Origin: Eubacterium sp.
GTDB lineage: Bacteria > Bacillota > Clostridia > Lachnospirales > Lachnospiraceae
Length of the DNA stretch: 64,000 nt
NCBI GenBank assembly: GCA_017619835.1
Contig: JAFZRN010000033.1
Span: 1 to 64,000, forward strand
Direction of reading: 5' to 3'
This document shows positions 4,150-13,241 of the stretch, one piece after another (position 1 is the first letter of the stretch; every line of letters starts with the position of its first letter). Below the pieces are notes generated by a model. That model saw nothing but the letters and a program-made list of their open reading frames with translations, was not told the DNA's origin and searched no databases. The translations under genes were made by a program, and so were the position numbers.

Positions 4150-4776
4150 TCATTCTCCCTGAGTTGTGAGAATCTTTACGATATCCTCATAGCTGCTACC
4201 TTCCTTGATCTTGAAGGTGCCTGTATGAAGCTTTGAATCGTATTTATTCTCGATGAGCCAGGTATTGAACTTAGTGGCTGAATCCACAAGGCCTGCCTTC
4301 TCAAGAAGAGATGAGATAGTCTCGGAACCCATGCCCGAAGTAACTGTGATCTCCTTCTCGCCCTCAGCTGCCGGCTCTGCGGCTTCCTCTGTAGCGGCTT
4401 CCGTTGTCTCTTCCTTAGCTTCCTCTGTCTTTTCTTCGGTTGCTTCGGTTGTAGCTTCAGTAGTAGCCTCGGTAGTAGCTTCCGTGGTTGCCTCGGTAGT
4501 AGCCTCGGTTTCCTTCTCCGTCTTCTCCTCGGTCTTAGCTTCGGTCTTCTTCTCAGTCTTCTTCTCGGTCTTCTTCTCCGTAGCCTTTTCCGTCTTCTTC
4601 TCTGTTGCCTTCTCGGTCTTCTTCTCTGTAGTATCCTCGGATACCGCAGCAGTCTTTGAACCGGTTTCAGCCTCGAATCTATCTCCGGACGCCCTATATG
4701 CCGCAAAGAATATAACGGTACTGATGATTATTCCGATACCGATACCTCTCAGTAGATATCTTGCATTCTTATTCAT
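4150..4776 (-). CDS. Membrane-anchored protein with TEK/TEAT repeats and MltG-like end
   Basis: About 208 residues. Short cytoplasmic start, one membrane helix (about residues 8-27), then roughly 80 residues of Thr/Glu/Lys and Thr/Glu/Ala four-residue repeats, and a folded C-terminus (about 140-208) with EITVTSGMGSETISSLLEKAG and LHTGTFKIKEGSSYEDIVKIL. This end resembles the LysM-like N-terminal part of YceG/MltG endolytic transglycosylases, but the catalytic domain is absent. The repeat probably spans cell wall like a spacer. Start at 4776 is preceded by GGGAG at eight bases. Precise function unknown; the MltG relation is from motif shape only. Confidence 0.82.
   Translation of the reverse strand: MNKNARYLLRGIGIGIIISTVIFFAAYRASGDRFEAETGSKTAAVSEDTTEKKTEKATEKKTEKATEKKTEKKTEKKTEAKTEEKTEKETEATTEATTEATTEATTEATTEATEEKTEEAKEETTEAATEEAAEPAAEGEKEITVTSGMGSETISSLLEKAGLVDSATKFNTWLIENKYDSKLHTGTFKIKEGSSYEDIVKILTTQGE
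4390..4640. repeat. In-gene 12-base tandem repeat coding TEKK/TEAT
   Basis: Degenerate tandem 12-base units (plus strand like TTCGGTAGTAGC and TTCTCTGTCTTC) encoding four-residue repeats. Units form two blocks, TEKK/TEKA at the N-side and TEAT at the C-side, consistent with separate expansions. Confidence 0.8.
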
Positions 4777-4796
4777 ATCATTATCTCCCGAATAAT

Positions 4797-4834
4797 TGTG
4801 AACTTTTTGTGTCCGGGGTCTGACCCCGTTCACA
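4797..4834. repeat. Palindromic element A (GGGGTC core)
   Basis: Outer arm TGTGAAC (4797-4803) pairs with GTTCACA (4828-4834). Between them is a second imperfect copy of the arm (4808-4814) and the core GGGGTCTGACCCC (4815-4827). Similar layout to elements at 18543, 22690 and 27335. It lies between two minus-strand genes and carries no U-run in their direction. Confidence 0.75.
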
Positions 4835-4835
4835 T

Positions 4836-5813
4836 TTATTTCTTACTGTCGATGATGGTCTTGATGTCTTCGACGCCGAGGCCGAGCACCTTGGATATCT
4901 CGATGATGCTGAAACCTGCGTTGTACATTTCCATGATGTTGCCTTCATTGTCACCATCTGTTATATCGATACCTTCTTTATCAAGCATTTCCTGAAGACT
5001 TGGACCTTCTTCATCCTCTTCCTCATCGGATTCTTCGGACTCATCGTCGTCTTCCTCGTCATCAGCATCTTCTGCTTCTTCTTCAGTTTCCTCGTCAGCT
5101 TCTTCAGCTTCCTCTACAGCTTCTTCAGTCTCTTCGGCTGCTTCTTCAACTGCCTCTTCTGCTGCTTCTGCAGCTTCCTCAGCTGCCTCGGCAGCTTCTT
5201 CCTTTACCTCTTCAGCAGCTTCCTCAGCTTCTTCCTCTTCGGCCGCCTCAGGCATGCTTCTGGTCACAACGGGAACATCTGCTAAAGCTGCCTTTTTTTC
5301 GTCCAGCTCCTTTGAAAGCTCTTCGATCTCGGCCTTCATCTTCTTGAGACCGTCCTTAGCTTCGTCAATGATGCTGAGAGAAGTCTTGATATCCTTCTCC
5401 TTATCGGCAACCTTATTATATATCTCTTCTATCTCATTTCTGTTTTTCTCGACATCAGAAGAAACTTCATTATAATACTCTTCCATCTTCTTGGAATTCT
5501 CGGTAGCCTTATCATCAATCTTGTTGATGTTATCCTCGAGCTTCTTTGAGATGGTCTTTTCGCTCTTCTTTAATTCTTCTTCGATCGCATTATTGATATT
5601 CTTGCTGACTGTCTCCTTGATCTTCTTCTTGCTGTACTCGTTCATGTAGTTATCAGTAAGCTTTCTGATCTTCTTCTTGTCAGCTTCAGGCAGGTCGTTA
5701 CCTACAAATACGGCCTTCTCTTCCTTTTCATCTTCGTCATCCTTAGTCAAAACAACACTTACGATGATCGCGAGAATACCGATAATGAGTAAAATGATAA
5801 CAATAGTATTCAT
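4836..5813 (-). CDS. Membrane-anchored coiled-coil acidic protein
   Basis: 325 residues, no recognised enzyme domain. An N-terminal membrane helix (NTIVIILLIIGILAIIVSVVL) is followed by a Lys/Glu-rich coiled coil (about 55-190), a long Glu/Ala/Asp tract (about 195-275) and a short C-terminal helical unit (MYNAGFSIIEISKVLGLGVEDIKTII) that looks like a helix-turn-helix of the DUF6115 type found in clostridial membrane proteins. The acidic tract may be a flexible spacer on the cytoplasmic side. Start ATG at 5813 has GGGGAAAG upstream. Probably cotranscribed with the following MltG-like gene. Function unknown. Confidence 0.82.
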   Translation of the reverse strand: MNTIVIILLIIGILAIIVSVVLTKDDEDEKEEKAVFVGNDLPEADKKKIRKLTDNYMNEYSKKKIKETVSKNINNAIEEELKKSEKTISKKLEDNINKIDDKATENSKKMEEYYNEVSSDVEKNRNEIEEIYNKVADKEKDIKTSLSIIDEAKDGLKKMKAEIEELSKELDEKKAALADVPVVTRSMPEAAEEEEAEEAAEEVKEEAAEAAEEAAEAAEEAVEEAAEETEEAVEEAEEADEETEEEAEDADDEEDDDESEESDEEEDEEGPSLQEMLDKEGIDITDGDNEGNIMEMYNAGFSIIEISKVLGLGVEDIKTIIDSKK

Positions 5814-5902: not shown

Positions 5903-7954
5903 CTAATCAAGCTTTTCTGTATATCCGCATGCAGCGTCTGCACAAACAGCTTTTTTACCCTTCACAACCATGAGTCCCTTACATACCGGACACACCTTTG
6001 CGATAGGCTTATTCCATGACATGAAGTCACAGTCGGGATAATCGATACAGCCGTAGAAAGGACGTCCCTTCTTGGTATTTCTCTTAACTATATCGGATCC
6101 GCACTTAGGACATTTTACGCCAATTTTCTCAAAGTAAGGCTTTGTAAAATGGCACTTAGGGAAGTTCGGGCAGGCAAGGAACTTGCCGTATGCGCCGTAC
6201 TTGATCACCATGTTGGCACCGCATTCGTCACAGACTTCATCAGTTGCCTCGTCTGCAATCTTGATCTTCTCAAGATTCTTGCTTGCGTCCTTGATCTCAT
6301 TTTCAAGATCGGGATAGAAGTTTCTCACAACTACCTTCCAGTCGATAGCACCGTCTCCGATGCTGTCAAGGAGAGACTCCATATTTGCGGTAAAATCTAT
6401 ATCTACTATCTCCGGAAATGCCGTCTCCATGATACCGTTTACGGCCTCACCCAGCTCCGTGATATAGAGATTCTTCTGTTCTTTTGTAATATATCTTCTG
6501 TTAAGAAGTGTTGAGATCGTAGGAGCATAGGTTGAAGGACGTCCGATACCGTTATCCTCCATGGTCTTTACGAGGAGCGACTCTGTATAATGTGCGGGTG
6601 GCTCCGTGAAATGCTGCTTTGATTCAACCTTATCTAGTTTTAATGTATCGCCTTCGTTGATTCCGCTGAGGTTGGCGGTCTTAGTCTTCTCTTCTTCCAC
6701 GCTGTAGACATTCAGATATCCCGCAAAGTTCAGAGTGCTCTCGGAACATTTGAGAGTCTCGCCTGCTGCTTCCACAGTTACAGTGAAGATATCATAGACT
6801 GCTGCCTTCATTCTGCTTGCAACGAATCTTTCATATATAAGCTTATAGAGCTTGTACTGATCTGATGATACAAATGGCTTGATAGACGCAGGTGTTCTCA
6901 TGACATCTGTGGGTCTTATAGCCTCATGTGCATCCTGGATCTTCTTAGCGGTCTGCTGTTTAGCTTCCTGCTCTTCCTCGGCTATATAATCCTCACCGAA
7001 GGTCTTTCTGATATATTCTCTTGCACTTCTGTCCGCCTCATCAGAAACTCTTATTGAGTCTGTTCTGAGGTAAGTGATGAGACCTACCGTACCCTGACCT
7101 TTAATCTCAACACCTTCGTAGAGCTGCTGGGCAACTCTCATGGTCTTGGATGTAGCAAAGTTTATACGGCTTGCAGCGGTCTGCTGAAGTGTACTTGTGG
7201 TAAACGGAACAGGAGCTTTCTTGCATCTGGCCGTCTGTTTTATGTCAACCACTTTGAAATCTGCTTTTGAAAGTTTTTCTCTTAATGCGTCTGCAGTTTT
7301 TCCGTCCTTAATGTCTTTCTTAAGACTGAAAAGTGCTGCAGCCTTCTGGCCGGGAACATGAAGATAAGTATCTATTGTCCAGAACTCTTCCGGAATGAAA
7401 TCACTTATCTCTTTTTCTCTGTCGGAAATCATCTTAAGAGCAACCGACTGCACACGTCCTGCTGAAAGACTTCTCTTTCCGAGCTTCTCCCAGAGAAGAG
7501 GGCTTATCTCATAGCCCACAAGTCTGTCTACTACTCTTCTTGCCTGCTGTGCATCCACGAGATCCATATCGATGGCACGTGCATTCTTAATGGAATCCTT
7601 AACGGCATTCTTCGTGATCTCGTTGAAGGTTATCCTCTTATATGTCTTCGCATCCAGCTTTAATGCCACGGAAAGATGGTAGCTTATAGCTTCTCCTTCG
7701 CGGTCCGGGTCGGTTGCGAGATATACAAAATCCGACTTCTTTGCAGCCTTCTTGAGGTTTGAAACAAGGTCGCCCTTGCCTCTTATAGTGATGTAATGGG
7801 GCTCGAAATCATTTTCCTTATCAATGCCCATGCTGCTTCTCGGAAGGTCCCTGACGTGTCCCTCCGAAGCTATAACTTCGAAGTTCTTGCCAAGAAACTT
7901 CTTTATTGTCTTTGCCTTTGTAGGCGACTCTACAATTACTAAATTCTTTGCCAT
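5903..7954 (-). CDS. topA: DNA topoisomerase I
   Basis: Type IA topoisomerase, about 683 residues, which relaxes negative supercoils behind RNA polymerase. The N-terminal Toprim domain shows VIVESPTKAKTI and DPDREGEAI; the active-site tyrosine lies in TYLRTDS. Three C-terminal zinc ribbons are present (CDECG...CPNFPKC, CPKCG...CIDYPDC, CPVCK...CADAACGY). The ATG at 7954 follows GGAGG by four bases; an open frame extends to 8020 but covers the promoter. Gene order comM-dprA-topA is common in Clostridia. Full length, no oddities. Confidence 0.98.
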   Translation of the reverse strand: MAKNLVIVESPTKAKTIKKFLGKNFEVIASEGHVRDLPRSSMGIDKENDFEPHYITIRGKGDLVSNLKKAAKKSDFVYLATDPDREGEAISYHLSVALKLDAKTYKRITFNEITKNAVKDSIKNARAIDMDLVDAQQARRVVDRLVGYEISPLLWEKLGKRSLSAGRVQSVALKMISDREKEISDFIPEEFWTIDTYLHVPGQKAAALFSLKKDIKDGKTADALREKLSKADFKVVDIKQTARCKKAPVPFTTSTLQQTAASRINFATSKTMRVAQQLYEGVEIKGQGTVGLITYLRTDSIRVSDEADRSAREYIRKTFGEDYIAEEEQEAKQQTAKKIQDAHEAIRPTDVMRTPASIKPFVSSDQYKLYKLIYERFVASRMKAAVYDIFTVTVEAAGETLKCSESTLNFAGYLNVYSVEEEKTKTANLSGINEGDTLKLDKVESKQHFTEPPAHYTESLLVKTMEDNGIGRPSTYAPTISTLLNRRYITKEQKNLYITELGEAVNGIMETAFPEIVDIDFTANMESLLDSIGDGAIDWKVVVRNFYPDLENEIKDASKNLEKIKIADEATDEVCDECGANMVIKYGAYGKFLACPNFPKCHFTKPYFEKIGVKCPKCGSDIVKRNTKKGRPFYGCIDYPDCDFMSWNKPIAKVCPVCKGLMVVKGKKAVCADAACGYTEKLD

Positions 7955-7991: not shown

Positions 7992-8020
7992 ACTATACAA
8001 CAAAATTTTTTTAATTGCAA
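7992..8020 (-). promoter_or_regulatory. topA promoter
   Basis: Minus strand TTGCAA (8015-8020), 17-base spacer, TATAGT (7992-7997), 38 bases upstream of the ATG. topA therefore has its own promoter downstream of the small RNA terminator. Confidence 0.7.
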
Positions 8021-8032
8021 GCAAATGATTTT

Positions 8033-8072
8033 TATAAAATAAAATAATCCTCGCCGATAAGGGCGAGGATTA
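8033..8072 (-). terminator. Terminator of the dprA-topA small RNA
   Basis: Perfect 11-base stem (8062-8072 with 8045-8055), six-base loop, then TTTTATTTTAT on the minus strand. Confidence 0.85.
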
Positions 8073-8161
8073 AAGCAGAATAGGTAGGTGACAATCTACA
8101 TCTCTTTTAAGACCATAAAGGCGTGACGGCTGCCTGTTCCGTCCTCAGATTCTGCTTACTT
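8033..8161 (-). ncRNA. Unidentified structured small RNA (about 120-130 nt)
   Basis: A self-contained transcription unit between dprA and topA. A consensus promoter ends at 8168, placing the start near 8161. The RNA body is closed by a perfect nine-pair stem AAGCAGAAT/ATTCTGCTT (8149-8157 with 8073-8081). Inside, GACGG/CCGTC forms a small hairpin and GTAG/CTAC another. A strong terminator follows the closing stem directly. There is no open frame with a ribosome site. I could not match it to 6S RNA, SRP RNA, tmRNA or a riboswitch class: the SRP loop consensus is absent. Since topA has its own promoter, it is more likely an independent RNA than a topA leader. Confidence 0.65.
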
Positions 8162-8167
8162 GACTAC

Positions 8168-8196
8168 AATATACTATTCTGCTGTTGCTTTGTCAA
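8168..8196 (-). promoter_or_regulatory. Consensus promoter of the small RNA
   Basis: Perfect -35 TTGACA (8191-8196), 17-base spacer, -10 TATATT (8168-8173) on the minus strand, just past the dprA stop codon. It is the closest match to consensus seen in the window. Confidence 0.8.
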
Positions 8197-8210
8197 TCAC
8201 GCTCGTGGGA

Positions 8211-9344
8211 CTATTTGTTCAGTACATAGTAGCTCTGTTCAAATACCTTCACAAATCCCATATCTTTAAGTGCCGCAAGCTGATGGAGAGTGTCGGATAT
8301 ATCCATATTGTTGGCGCGGATGATGTCATCGATGTAGACGGGTTCGTAGCCGAGAAGTCCGAGGATTCTCTGCTGGGACTTGGAGAGGGCGTAGGTGGAG
8401 GCAGGGGAATTCGTACCTTCCGCCGATGCTTCCGCAGTGCCACCCGAAAACCCGAACGAATCCATGATTATATCCCCCGGGCTGTCAACTAACATCGCTC
8501 CCTGCTTGATAAGGTTGTTGACGCCACGTGACATCATATCTGATACACGGCCGGGGATCGCATATATCTCCTTCCCCTGCTCTAATGCATAATCGGTGGT
8601 AATGAGTGTTCCGCTCCTGAGTGCTGCTTCCACAACAAGCACCGAGTCAGAAAGCCCGCTTATAATCCGGTTTCTTACAGGGAAATGAATTGCTACGTGG
8701 GCTTCTCCCGGCTCATACTCCGAAACAAGAAGCCCTCTCTCGCATAGCTCCTCATAGATATCAAAATTGGAAAGCGGATAACATATATCCACTCCGCCTC
8801 CCAGGACCGCGACCGTATTCCCGTCCACGGCAAGTGCACCCTCGTGGGATCTTGCATCTATCCCCATCGCCATTCCGCTTACAATAGTAAAGCCCCTCGC
8901 TGCAAGTGCCTTTGAAAATTCATCCGCGACAGCCGCTCCGTAATGAGTCGGCCTCCTGGTTCCGATCATCGCGATCATATGTTCCGAATATAAAAGCTCC
9001 GTCCGCCCCTTACAGAATATAGCAAGCGGAGGATTAACTATATCGCAGAGCTTTTCCGGATATTCTTCATCTGCCGGCGTATAGACAGTTATCTTTCCCC
9101 TTTCAATATCCTCATTTAGTCTTTCAAACCAGCGCTTTTCATCTATCTCACCTATCTCCTCTGCTGTCGTTTTCTTTATCGTCTTATCCTTAACAAGCTT
9201 TTCCCTCTCTTCTTCACTTCCGGTCAGCGCCTCATATACCCGGACGCTGCTTCCGTACTTTCTGAAAAGCTTTGCCGGATCACCCAGCCGGAATGTACTT
9301 ATATGATTCATCCAGAGATAACAATTTCTTTCATTAATATCCAT
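8211..9344 (-). CDS. dprA: DNA-processing protein DprA
   Basis: Rossmann-fold ssDNA-binding protein, about 377 residues, that loads RecA on DNA taken up in transformation. The core shows MIGTRRPTHYG, VSGMAMGIDARSH, TVAVLGGGVDICYP, HFPVRNRIISGLS and VVEAALRSGTLITTDYALEQGKEIYAIPG, all family signatures. A short variable linker leads to a C-terminal winged helix (SKSQQRILGLLGYEPVYIDDI). Translation starts at the ATG at 9344, with GGAGG five bases upstream and overlapping the comM stop; a TTG at 9356 is an unlikely alternative. Coupled to comM. Confidence 0.96.
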   Translation of the reverse strand: MDINERNCYLWMNHISTFRLGDPAKLFRKYGSSVRVYEALTGSEEEREKLVKDKTIKKTTAEEIGEIDEKRWFERLNEDIERGKITVYTPADEEYPEKLCDIVNPPLAIFCKGRTELLYSEHMIAMIGTRRPTHYGAAVADEFSKALAARGFTIVSGMAMGIDARSHEGALAVDGNTVAVLGGGVDICYPLSNFDIYEELCERGLLVSEYEPGEAHVAIHFPVRNRIISGLSDSVLVVEAALRSGTLITTDYALEQGKEIYAIPGRVSDMMSRGVNNLIKQGAMLVDSPGDIIMDSFGFSGGTAEASAEGTNSPASTYALSKSQQRILGLLGYEPVYIDDIIRANNMDISDTLHQLAALKDMGFVKVFEQSYYVLNK

Positions 9345-9346
9345 AC

Positions 9347-10891
9347 CTACCTCCAATCCGTAGCGCCATCCTCATTCCTGAAGAATGCCGCTTCCTCGAT
9401 ATTACGTTCACTCACAAACTCTCTTCCCTCGATATCCGCAATCGTCCTTGCAAGCCTCAGCATCTTATAGTAGCCTCTTGCGCTTATCCCCGAATTATCA
9501 TAAATATTCCTCAAAAGCTTCTTTTCCTTTTCGCCGAGAACTATGAACTCCTCAATCCTGCTCTGGGGAATCTCGGAATTAAAGTTGATACTCTCATTCT
9601 TAAACCTTTCCTCCTGCTTCTTCCTCGCGCCTTCGATCATAGCTTTTGCGGTCTTTGAATCCATTCCTTCATTGTCTGAAAAAAGATCATCATAAGAAAC
9701 CGGACTTATCTCAAGCCTGATATCGATCCTGTCCATTATCGGATGGCTTATCCTGTTCTTATAACGCTGTATCGCTCCCGACGAGCACCTGCATTTATCC
9801 CTGTTTGGATAGAACCCGCAGGGGCAGTTATTCCTCGCTGATACAAGCATGAATCTTGCCGGAAATGTGTAGCTTGCCCGCACTCTCGAGACATTTACAA
9901 TATGATCTTCCATAGGCTGTCTCAGCCCCTCGATAACACTCCTTGAATATTCCGGAAACTCATCCAGAAAGAGTACTCCTCCGTTTGCAAGGCTCACCTC
10001 CCCCGGCGTCGGGCTCATGCCTCCTCCGATAAGAGCCGCATTCGAAACATTCTGACCCGGAGCACGAAACGGTCTCCTCTTCATCAGCCCGTCCGACAGG
10101 TCAAGGTTTCCGGCGATACTGTATATCTTGGTAAGCTCCAGACTCTCGTTATAAGTCAGATCCGGCATCAGCTCGGGAATACATTTGGCTATCATGGATT
10201 TACCTGAGCCGGCGGCACCTGTAAGAAGTATATTGTGAAAGCCGGCCACACCGATTATTACACCCTTCTTCATGGTCTCCTGACCTCTTATATCCTTAAG
10301 GTCATAAAGAAAATCTTTCTGAACACTTTTCTTAATCTCGGGCATGACAAAAGGATCCCCCCACTCACCGCTTGAAAGAATCTTGATTATATCTGTAAGA
10401 CTGCCGACGGGAATGATCTCGAGCCCCTTTATAAATGAAGCTTCACTTGCATTCTCCTCGGGAACCACAACCCTTTCGATGCCATTTTTAAGGGCGTGAT
10501 CAACTATCGGAAGCACACCTCTTACAGGCAGAATGCTCCCATCCAGTCCGAGCTCACCGAGAAAAAGAGTCTTCTCCAGCTCCTTATTGAATTTTTCACG
10601 GATAAAAAAAATGCCCATGGAAATGAGAATACCAGTCGCAATGGCAACATCGAATCCCGTGCCATCCTTCCTGATATCTGCGGGCGATAGATTGACGGTC
10701 ACCTTCCTGGAAGGGATCGGATAACCGACATTTCTGAGCGCGGTCCTTACTCTGTCACCGGCCTCCTTAACAGACGATGACAGATAACCGACAAGACATA
10801 GCCCCGGAAGTCCCAGGCTCATATCAGATTCAACACTGATGAGCATCCCGTTGATCCCGAGCGCTACTCCACTATAGATTTTTGAATACAC
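9347..10891 (-). CDS. comM: YifB/ComM family Mg-chelatase-like AAA+ ATPase
   Basis: 514-residue ComM-type helicase that promotes branch migration of incoming DNA during natural transformation in characterised species. The N-terminal ChlI/Lon-like domain occupies about 1-175; AAA+ Walker A GAAGSGKS is at 225-232, Walker B GVLFLDEFPE follows, and the C-terminal Mg-chelatase subdomain carries the Cys-rich NNCPCGFYPNRDKCRC segment. The start is GTG at 10891, with AGAGGAG seven bases upstream. Operon with dprA. Whether this organism is competent cannot be told; comM and dprA are widespread in non-competent Clostridia. Confidence 0.95.
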   Translation of the reverse strand: MYSKIYSGVALGINGMLISVESDMSLGLPGLCLVGYLSSSVKEAGDRVRTALRNVGYPIPSRKVTVNLSPADIRKDGTGFDVAIATGILISMGIFFIREKFNKELEKTLFLGELGLDGSILPVRGVLPIVDHALKNGIERVVVPEENASEASFIKGLEIIPVGSLTDIIKILSSGEWGDPFVMPEIKKSVQKDFLYDLKDIRGQETMKKGVIIGVAGFHNILLTGAAGSGKSMIAKCIPELMPDLTYNESLELTKIYSIAGNLDLSDGLMKRRPFRAPGQNVSNAALIGGGMSPTPGEVSLANGGVLFLDEFPEYSRSVIEGLRQPMEDHIVNVSRVRASYTFPARFMLVSARNNCPCGFYPNRDKCRCSSGAIQRYKNRISHPIMDRIDIRLEISPVSYDDLFSDNEGMDSKTAKAMIEGARKKQEERFKNESINFNSEIPQSRIEEFIVLGEKEKKLLRNIYDNSGISARGYYKMLRLARTIADIEGREFVSERNIEEAAFFRNEDGATDWR

Positions 10892-11972: not shown

Positions 11973-13241
11973 TTAGATTCCGAATAATTCAGCGATCGCA
12001 TCCTCTTTAAGGTTGCTTCCGATAACGCAGAGCTTGCCGGTATAATCGGCTGAGCCGTTTCTTATCTCGTATTCACCCGGAACGAGGTCGAACTCCTTCC
12101 AGTTACCATCCTTGTCGGGAACGATTCCCTTGGCACGAAGGATGATTCCGAGTTCGTTATCTTCCTCAACTGCAAGCTTGTCAAGGATAACTTTAAGCTC
12201 ATCCTCACTATATTTATGAGCTGTCTCTTTGCCCCAGCTTGTGAATACTTCATCTGCATCGTGGTGATGGTGATGATGTCCGCAGCTGCATACACCGTTC
12301 TCATCATAATGATGCTCATGATGGTGCTCATGATCATGATCCTCATGGTCGTGATCATGGTCGTGGTGATGATGCTCATGCTCTTCATGATCGTCATGGT
12401 CATGATCATGGTGGTGATGCTCATGCTCTTCATGATCGTGATCATGGTGATGATGCTCATGCTCGTGATCATGCTCTTCATGGTCATGATCTTCGTGATC
12501 ATGGTGATGATGCTCATGCTCGTGATCATGTTCTTCATGGTCATGCTCATCGTGATCGTCATGGTCATGATGATGATGGTGATGATGCTCTTCATCGTCA
12601 ACTGCAGGATCATACTTGAAGTTCTTCATGATATCCTCGATGGATGAAGAATGCTCCATGGCATCAAGTATTATCTTACCAGTGATATCATCCCAGGGTG
12701 TTGTGATTATCCTTGCCTCGGCATTATGCTCCTTGATCATGTTGACAGCCTCAAGCAGCTTCTCTTCAGTCGCATTCTGTGTACGGCTGAGGACTACTGT
12801 TCCGCAAGCCTCGATCTGATTAATGAAGAACTCGCCGAAGTTCTTGATATACATTTTGGCCTTTGTAACATCAACAACAGTAGTTGCGCTGTTAAGAGCG
12901 ATGTCGACATTTTCGCCGGCCTTCTGGATAGCCTTGATAACATCGGAAAGCTTTCCGACGCCGGATGGTTCGATCAGAACACGGTCCGGAGCGAAGTCAT
13001 TTACAACCTGCTTAAGGGCCTCGCCGAAGTCACCAACAAGCGAGCAGCAGATGCAGCCTGAATTCATCTCGGTGATGTTGACACCTGCCTCCTTAAGGAA
13101 GCCGCCATCGATACCTATCTCACCGAACTCATTTTCAATGAGGACAAGTTTCTCGCCCTCAAAGGCTTCATTTATAAGCTTCTTTATAAGTGTTGTCTTA
13201 CCGGCTCCGAGGAAACCGGATATGATATCTATCTTTGTCAT
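11973..13241 (-). CDS. CobW-like G3E GTPase with very long His-rich loop
   Basis: 422-residue putative metallochaperone (zinc, nickel or cobalt). Walker A GFLGAGKTT is at 9-17, ENEFGEIGIDGGF follows, and the metal-binding motif GCICC is at 62-66. NKxD is degenerate (LSRTQ). Residues about 219-327 are a His/Asp/Glu tract with roughly 59 histidines, followed by CSCGHHHHHH, then a CobW C-terminal domain (KGIVPDKDGNWKEFDLVPGEYEI). The tract probably stores or buffers metal. The ATG at 13241 follows GGAGG by six bases and lies twelve bases after glgB. Likely cotranscribed with the second GTPase downstream. No Zur-like operator was recognised. Confidence 0.93.
   Translation of the reverse strand: MTKIDIISGFLGAGKTTLIKKLINEAFEGEKLVLIENEFGEIGIDGGFLKEAGVNITEMNSGCICCSLVGDFGEALKQVVNDFAPDRVLIEPSGVGKLSDVIKAIQKAGENVDIALNSATTVVDVTKAKMYIKNFGEFFINQIEACGTVVLSRTQNATEEKLLEAVNMIKEHNAEARIITTPWDDITGKIILDAMEHSSSIEDIMKNFKYDPAVDDEEHHHHHHHDHDDHDEHDHEEHDHEHEHHHHDHEDHDHEEHDHEHEHHHHDHDHEEHEHHHHDHDHDDHEEHEHHHHDHDHDHEDHDHEHHHEHHYDENGVCSCGHHHHHHDADEVFTSWGKETAHKYSEDELKVILDKLAVEEDNELGIILRAKGIVPDKDGNWKEFDLVPGEYEIRNGSADYTGKLCVIGSNLKEDAIAELFGI
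12261..12587. repeat. Tandem repeats coding the His-rich loop
   Basis: Imperfect repeats of units such as CATGATCATG and GATGATGCTCATGCTC on the plus strand, encoding HDHD/EEHEHHHH blocks. Three near-identical longer blocks show recent unit duplication, so length variation between strains is expected. Confidence 0.85.

Follow-up and report, generated by a model that had tools for sequence, protein, structure and literature searches.

The DNA analysed here, 64,000 nucleotides (nt) from the start of contig JAFZRN010000033.1 of Eubacterium sp. (Lachnospiraceae; assembly GCA_017619835.1) and called the window below, carries between dprA and topA a small-RNA gene of the skipping-rope class (Rfam RF02924), a family linked in other genomes and in phages to genes for PBECR-type nucleases. 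Sequence and homology support a genuine RNA gene of a known class. The features of the locus, in the order of transcription, are the following.

8211-9356, minus strand: dprA, the 5' neighbour of the RNA gene.
8168..8196, minus strand: sigma-70-type promoter TTGACA-17-TATATT, 11/12 in a consensus scan, ending 14 nt ahead of the RNA core.
8038..8161, minus strand: predicted transcript of about 124 nt, its start placed 7 nt past the -10 element.
8149..8157, minus strand: 5' strand of the closing stem, AAGCAGAAU, acceptor-stem-like, read directly and backed by covariation of this stem in the family.
8077..8153, minus strand: skipping-rope RNA core, RF02924 model positions 1-80, 52.2 bits against a gathering score of 36.7; 59.6 bits with our own model R1, which has the window sequence itself among its building sequences.
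8073..8081, minus strand: 3' strand of the closing stem, AUUCUGCUU, read directly.
8045..8072, minus strand: intrinsic terminator found by scan, a stem-loop of 11 pairs (-18.0 kcal/mol) and then a T-rich tail, TTTTATTTTA.
7992..8020, minus strand: topA promoter-like site, 9/12 in a consensus scan, beyond the RNA terminator.
Start at 7954, minus strand: topA, the 3' neighbour of the RNA gene.

The sequence-only reading had proposed an independent RNA with a promoter, a perfect nine-pair stem and a strong terminator, followed by a separate promoter for topA, and was silent on the strand. These elements are borne out, on the minus strand: the closing stem forms nine perfect pairs (8157-8149 with 8081-8073), and the promoter-like site of topA (8020..7992) lies downstream of the RNA terminator. 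The minus strand from 8162 to 8041 folds at -40.4 kcal/mol (z -3.35), which none of 200 dinucleotide shuffles matched, and the fold of the plus strand at 8060-8200 is unremarkable (z -1.32). Consensus scans are weak by themselves, with four promoter-like sites in 4 kb versus 5.3 in shuffled sequence and three terminator-like sites versus 3.0. Thus, the case for an RNA gene is made by the combination of promoter, terminator and fold together with the Rfam match, and not by the consensus scan alone. That match (8153-8077, minus strand) covers the whole model (1-80 of 80) above its gathering score, and the window RNA shares the sequence and structure of the class and presumably its pseudoknot. 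Because RF02924 is the only Rfam family above its cut-off in the window, the earlier view that the RNA is not 6S, signal recognition particle or transfer-messenger RNA (tmRNA) can be upheld. The suggested novelty of its class falls, since a match to a known class had itself been named as the result that would remove it, and the covariance-model search places the RNA in RF02924. Four other families tried at the locus (CRISPR-DR63, ncr1175, FTX_2 and Hrs1) scored far under their Rfam cut-offs.

To describe the family, two pattern scans of viral contigs (101 and 62 stretches) were searched with R1, which gave 121 matches at E <= 0.01 (61 and 60). Two weak matches (L110 and the second in L210) and one that is cut off (L174) were left out, so that the viral set comprises 118 matches. 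The chromosomal set comprises 65 loci, mostly the best-scoring ones, and is therefore not a random sample. In genome surveys at a match threshold of E <= 0.001, the RNA was found in 8 of 61 relative genomes, including 3 of 37 of the genus (the window's own, which has one copy, is counted), in 71 of 392 genomes of the order and in 28 of 398 of the phylum; control genomes gave 0 of 14 in each survey.

Across the 183 RNA matches, a gene for a PBECR-family nuclease (BECR fold) is present in the locus of 72, and 65 of these 72 genes lie immediately upstream of the RNA on the same strand; five are convergent. In a second, named set, 40 of 81 matches had a PBECR gene upstream at a distance of at most 160 nt (39 of 78 once three matches that repeat an RNA already counted are removed). 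The linkage also holds in the reverse direction: the RNA lies just downstream of 15 of the 18 PBECR3 matches in a search that covered 146 genomes. Moreover, distances between the RNAs correlate with those between the PBECR proteins (r 0.77 for 69 pairs; reached by none of 2000 permutations). In Pfam, where the partner proteins belong to families PF18812/PF18810, 31 of 41 upstream open reading frames (ORFs) in one scan matched PBECR2 and 30 matched PBECR3; for the 58 in another scan the counts are 27 and 28. No ToxN-type family occurs among the Pfam matches listed (25), a statement about sequence families, as the ToxN fold was not compared directly. Candidate BECR active-site residues, presumably equivalent to those of the published active site, are kept in most of the partner proteins (His in 64/69, Ser/Thr in 65/69). 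The predicted PBECR structure (pLDDT, the predicted local distance difference test, of 92) resembles RelE and BrnT as well as CdiA toxins, so that transfer RNA (tRNA) is no more than a possible target of this predicted ribonuclease. The aligned PBECR proteins (alignment A7) had no match in NCBIfam, two weak matches in PADLOC (best E 0.0086) and one marginal, partial sequence match in the Protein Data Bank (8vd6, E 0.0029).

At two loci, L048 and L242, a skipping-rope RNA directly follows a long ORF whose C-terminal domain is of the PBECR type, which suggests that an RNA provides the immunity to a virion-borne nuclease. One member of the set with L048, by eye L048 itself, matched Phage_Mu_F. 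The arrangement recalls the MuF polymorphic toxins of temperate phages (PMC5576092). However, the accessible text on those toxins proposes that small downstream ORFs encode immunity proteins, whereas the downstream element at L048 and L242 is an RNA. At eight loci (L305, L317, L333, L188, L205, L187, L123 and G138:C70), at least two RNA copies stand close together on one strand, like tandem antitoxin RNAs.

The consensus of RF02924 consists of a closing stem of 8 base pairs (bp), 2 nt, a 5-bp arm with a 9-nt loop, 1 nt, a variable middle arm, 4 nt (AGAU), and a second 5-bp arm with a 9-nt loop that abuts the closing stem. When compared with the cloverleaf layout of tRNA, the skipping-rope RNA shares the cloverleaf topology and a contact between D-like and T-like loops, which is a likeness and not membership. 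Model R1 was built from 55 sequences, and 100 distinct matches from 99 chosen loci were aligned; this alignment was fitted to the R1 stems and not to the loop-loop kiss. Over the pairs of the closing stem, the two outer arms and the kiss, plus one pair of the middle arm, 91.5% of the cells are paired versus 67.8% in shuffles, 557 cells are double-changed versus 154, and the covariation score is 0.605 versus 0.175; none of 500 shuffles reached any of these values. Double changes occur at 21 of 24 pairs, and sliding the partner by one to three columns lowers pairing to 48.3% or less. Two flanking kissing positions fail in 50 and 57 of the 100 sequences. For 168 of 170 RNAs (two could not be parsed), the kissing score of the native loops is 8.87 versus 7.18 (standard deviation 0.19) with loops swapped, and no permutation out of 300 was as high. 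In a subtype with longer loops, the kissing sequences are entirely different, for example CGTGGC/GCCACG and CGTCCG/CGGACG. In the window, the loops AACAGGCAG and AUUGUCAC hold GGCAG and UUGUC, which form the best pairing of six RNAs in the kissing-score analysis. Conservation in the family thus described concerns chiefly the structure and the junction nucleotides. With ARAGORN, the window gave no tRNA, nor did the position of the RNA at any of 60 loci; Rfam called three phage copies skipping-rope and not tRNA, and neither a CCA directly after the stem nor an anticodon-like fixed loop occurs in the copies inspected. By these searches, the skipping-rope RNA is not a tRNA.

Placement beside tRNA genes is a feature of the viral copies. 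In Lactococcus phage LW81 the start of the RNA is 2 nt past a tRNA gene, in Bacillus phage P59 5 nt. The copy of Lactococcus phage 949 belongs to a tRNA-rich stretch, and the nearest called tRNA precedes it by 202 nt (measured on copy L069). A tRNA within 500 nt accompanies 24 of the 118 viral matches, always on the same strand, and 87 of the 118 have no tRNA in the locus sequence examined. Among the 107 distinct viral RNAs, 11 lie within 50 nt of a same-strand tRNA versus 0.56 at random (at most 3 in 1000 draws), and 21 within 500 nt versus 3.2 (at most 9); none has a tRNA on the opposite strand only within 500 nt. Of 60 chromosomal loci, only three (L013, L015 and L054) contain a tRNA or tmRNA, in each case on the strand opposite to the RNA. 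The named set is mixed: a tRNA lies within 500 nt on the same strand at L306 and L349, whereas the tRNA or tmRNA of L318, L331 and L355 is on the other strand. The opposite-strand gene near the RNA at L013, L331 and L355 is a tmRNA gene, possibly an integration site. In the tRNA-rich stretch of phage LW81 (L067), Rfam also matched a tmRNA at 5146-5495 (109.6 bits) and, after it, a weaker tRNA at 5636-5723 (39.8 bits); no tmRNA is among the annotated features shown.

With promoters counted at 9/12 or better (7.9% in shuffled upstream sequence) and terminators counted without a shuffled control, the 24 viral copies beside tRNAs have an own promoter in no case and a terminator in three. The PBECR-linked copies have an own promoter in 39 of 72 cases and a terminator in 58 of 70, the solitary chromosomal copies in 10 and 21 of 27, and the solitary viral copies in 14 and 26 of 60, respectively.

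The window copy appears to be an orphan. The window's own genome (2.7 Mb, 93% complete) gave no match to PF18812 and none to the PBECR alignment; such negatives carry little weight, although PF18812 does find matches in other genomes. At the window locus no endoribonuclease-like toxin gene of the kind that marks type III toxin-antitoxin systems adjoins the RNA. Of the 61 genomes surveyed around the genus, 53 had a topA match, and 30 same-genus topA loci were compared (a script located the topA start in 22). The conservation that had been expected in the dprA-topA gap of close relatives is not seen, as the RNA is present in the window's locus only. The other 29 loci had no significant match, and the sole other one up to E 10 was L254 (10.8 bits, E 0.3). 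The family is nonetheless present in other genera, in phages and beside the nuclease gene. Where dprA precedes topA in the relatives, the spacer is short and contains the topA promoter-like site (by eye). Since the RNA occurs only at the window's topA locus and the spacers of its relatives are short, the window cassette is probably a recent arrival. Among the 183 matches, the window RNA is most similar to L060 (94% identity), which comes from the same taxonomic family as the window's genome, L030 (91%) and L034 (87%), each of them PBECR-linked. By eye, the five positions at which it differs from L060 leave the fold unharmed, since they fall in the middle arm, its bulge and the outermost stem pair, which is A-U or G-U. 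In L060 the RNA-nuclease pair sits between phosphoglucose-isomerase-like and rRNA-dimethylase-like genes, and none of the nine neighbouring ORFs, one of which matched nothing, belongs to a phage family. Therefore, RNA and nuclease also occur together as a small cassette on chromosomes. That the two can part is seen again at L032 and L033 and at L058 and L059, where the same RNA occurs with and without a recognised nuclease alongside. The stretch upstream of the window RNA was considered as a possible vestige of the 3' end of a toxin gene. Locally it resembles the last part of the L060 nuclease ORF (score 27, maximum of 25 in 2000 shuffles), which is suggestive at most, because both stretches hold consensus promoter hexamers and the likeness is absent for L030 (19) and L034 (15).

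We propose, with a probability of about 0.5, that the RNA is a tRNA-mimicking antitoxin or decoy for a PBECR nuclease, kept in the window without its toxin. The skipping-rope RNA would be the tRNA-shaped partner of PBECR-type predicted ribonucleases that occur in phages and in small chromosomal cassettes. By mimicking tRNA it would occupy the nuclease and keep it inactive, in the manner of a type-III-like RNA antitoxin or a decoy. The window copy would have arrived, or been retained, without the nuclease, and would guard the cell against any phage or cassette that brings such a nuclease in. An RNA occupying the nuclease would fit the tRNA-like form, the link to BECR-type nucleases, the nuclease-free copies among phage tRNAs and the orphan copies. 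More tentatively, and at somewhat less than even odds, the whole class may form the RNA component of a widespread antitoxin system yet to be described, in which tRNA-shaped RNAs with an elbow-like kiss capture and silence BECR-fold phage nucleases (stand-alone PBECR3 proteins or PBECR domains at the end of long MuF-type proteins). The toxin-free copies, found among the tRNAs of some phages and, in bacteria such as the one studied here, between housekeeping genes, would then serve as heritable antidotes.

Against an antitoxin or decoy role, 111 of the 183 RNA matches have no recognised nuclease in the locus sequence examined, and the PBECR paper suggests that phage nucleases may spare host tRNA. 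The nuclease-free copies lack a recurring partner comparable to PBECR in Pfam and PHROGs scans of their neighbours: the commonest families among 90 neighbours (of 92 selected) of PBECR-free viral copies were HTH_3 in Pfam (5) and phrog_8 in PHROGs (6), and no family exceeded two among 50 neighbours of chromosomal copies. The linkage data would also suit an RNA that serves the nuclease as substrate, guide or activator, for example a decoy cut instead of tRNA or a directing scaffold, and so would the position of the RNA downstream of the nuclease gene and its own promoter in 39 of 72 PBECR-linked copies. We consider such a role unlikely, because the nuclease-free copies are common and include the one in the window's genome, in which no PBECR was found, and are easier to account for with an antidote than with an activator.

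A role of the RNA in translation itself, at ribosomes, in tRNA processing or with tRNA-modifying enzymes, would make the nuclease just one of several settings. The cloverleaf topology and the placement beside phage tRNAs, there without an own promoter and mostly without a terminator (3/24), point in this direction. However, the copies have no anticodon-like fixed loop or CCA end and are not called as tRNAs by ARAGORN or Rfam, and the RNA at 15 of 18 PBECR3 matches would be left unexplained; this role thus seems less probable still. The stand-alone promoter and terminator and the position ahead of topA are what one would also see in an ordinary trans-acting small RNA that pairs with mRNAs, or in a topA leader. 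Conservation that concerns mainly structure and junction nucleotides makes the former improbable, and a topA leader or attenuator is rejected because the topA promoter-like site follows the terminator and persists in same-genus relatives without the RNA (by eye); together they rank as the least plausible of these explanations.

Among described systems, the closest precedent for an antitoxin or decoy RNA is AbiF/RCd22 (PMC12373285), in which, according to the accessible text, a phage-encoded AbiF toxin is neutralised by RCd22 through direct RNA-protein contact. RCd22 is an RNA of about 100 nt that has an Rfam motif (abiF motif, RF03085), a SigA promoter and a terminator and stands beside a prophage-borne toxin, a set of features that the skipping-rope family resembles. 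As an RNA that silences a phage toxin, RCd22 lends precedent to the mechanism proposed for the skipping-rope RNA, but its motif is another one, its toxin is Abi_2, and it lies upstream of the toxin gene, whereas the skipping-rope RNA is mostly downstream. As a separate observation, the RNA copy at L106 (2340-2419) lies directly 3' of a short ORF that matches the end of Abi_2, and a full Abi_2 protein adjoins one PBECR-free chromosomal copy. Type III toxin-antitoxin systems (ToxIN, CptIN), as far as their descriptions were accessible, likewise pair a structured RNA with an endoribonuclease gene, and some skipping-rope loci have tandem RNA copies as well; the skipping-rope nuclease, however, is of the PBECR type, and its RNA is usually single, placed after the gene and tRNA-shaped. 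Phage tRNAs have been proposed to counter tRNA-cutting defences (PMC10264068; see also PMC11555353, both in their accessible parts), and some skipping-rope copies are found among same-strand phage tRNAs. Unlike those tRNAs, they have no anticodon or CCA end and would occupy a nuclease instead of replacing lost tRNA.

RF02924 is named in the accessible parts of PMC7779021, which gives the skipping-rope RNA a pseudoknot, and of PMC7682815; in a list of phage non-coding RNAs it accounts for 1% (PMC8501573, likewise in part). The Rfam entry reads only 'Gene; sRNA', and the nuclease link, the placement beside tRNAs and the cloverleaf reading are absent from the literature searched. Nor was a paper found that joins PBECR with the skipping-rope RNA, in a search that left most subscription papers and bioRxiv outside. 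The class is thus known, yet no function for it was found in the accessible literature; the near-reciprocal link between RNA and nuclease makes both the role of the one and the target of the other testable. If the proposal is correct, tRNA mimicry by an antitoxin RNA would reveal what PBECR nucleases attack and account for the non-tRNA element that some phages maintain among their tRNAs. In that case, the window would illustrate the final stage, in which a bacterial chromosome keeps an orphan antidote.

Elsewhere in the window, a putative CobW-type GTPase (11973-13241, minus strand; by eye) contains a very long histidine-rich repeat that opens long ORFs in other frames, and a protein at 4150-4833 (minus strand) has a long lysine/threonine/glutamate repeat ahead of its C-terminal part.
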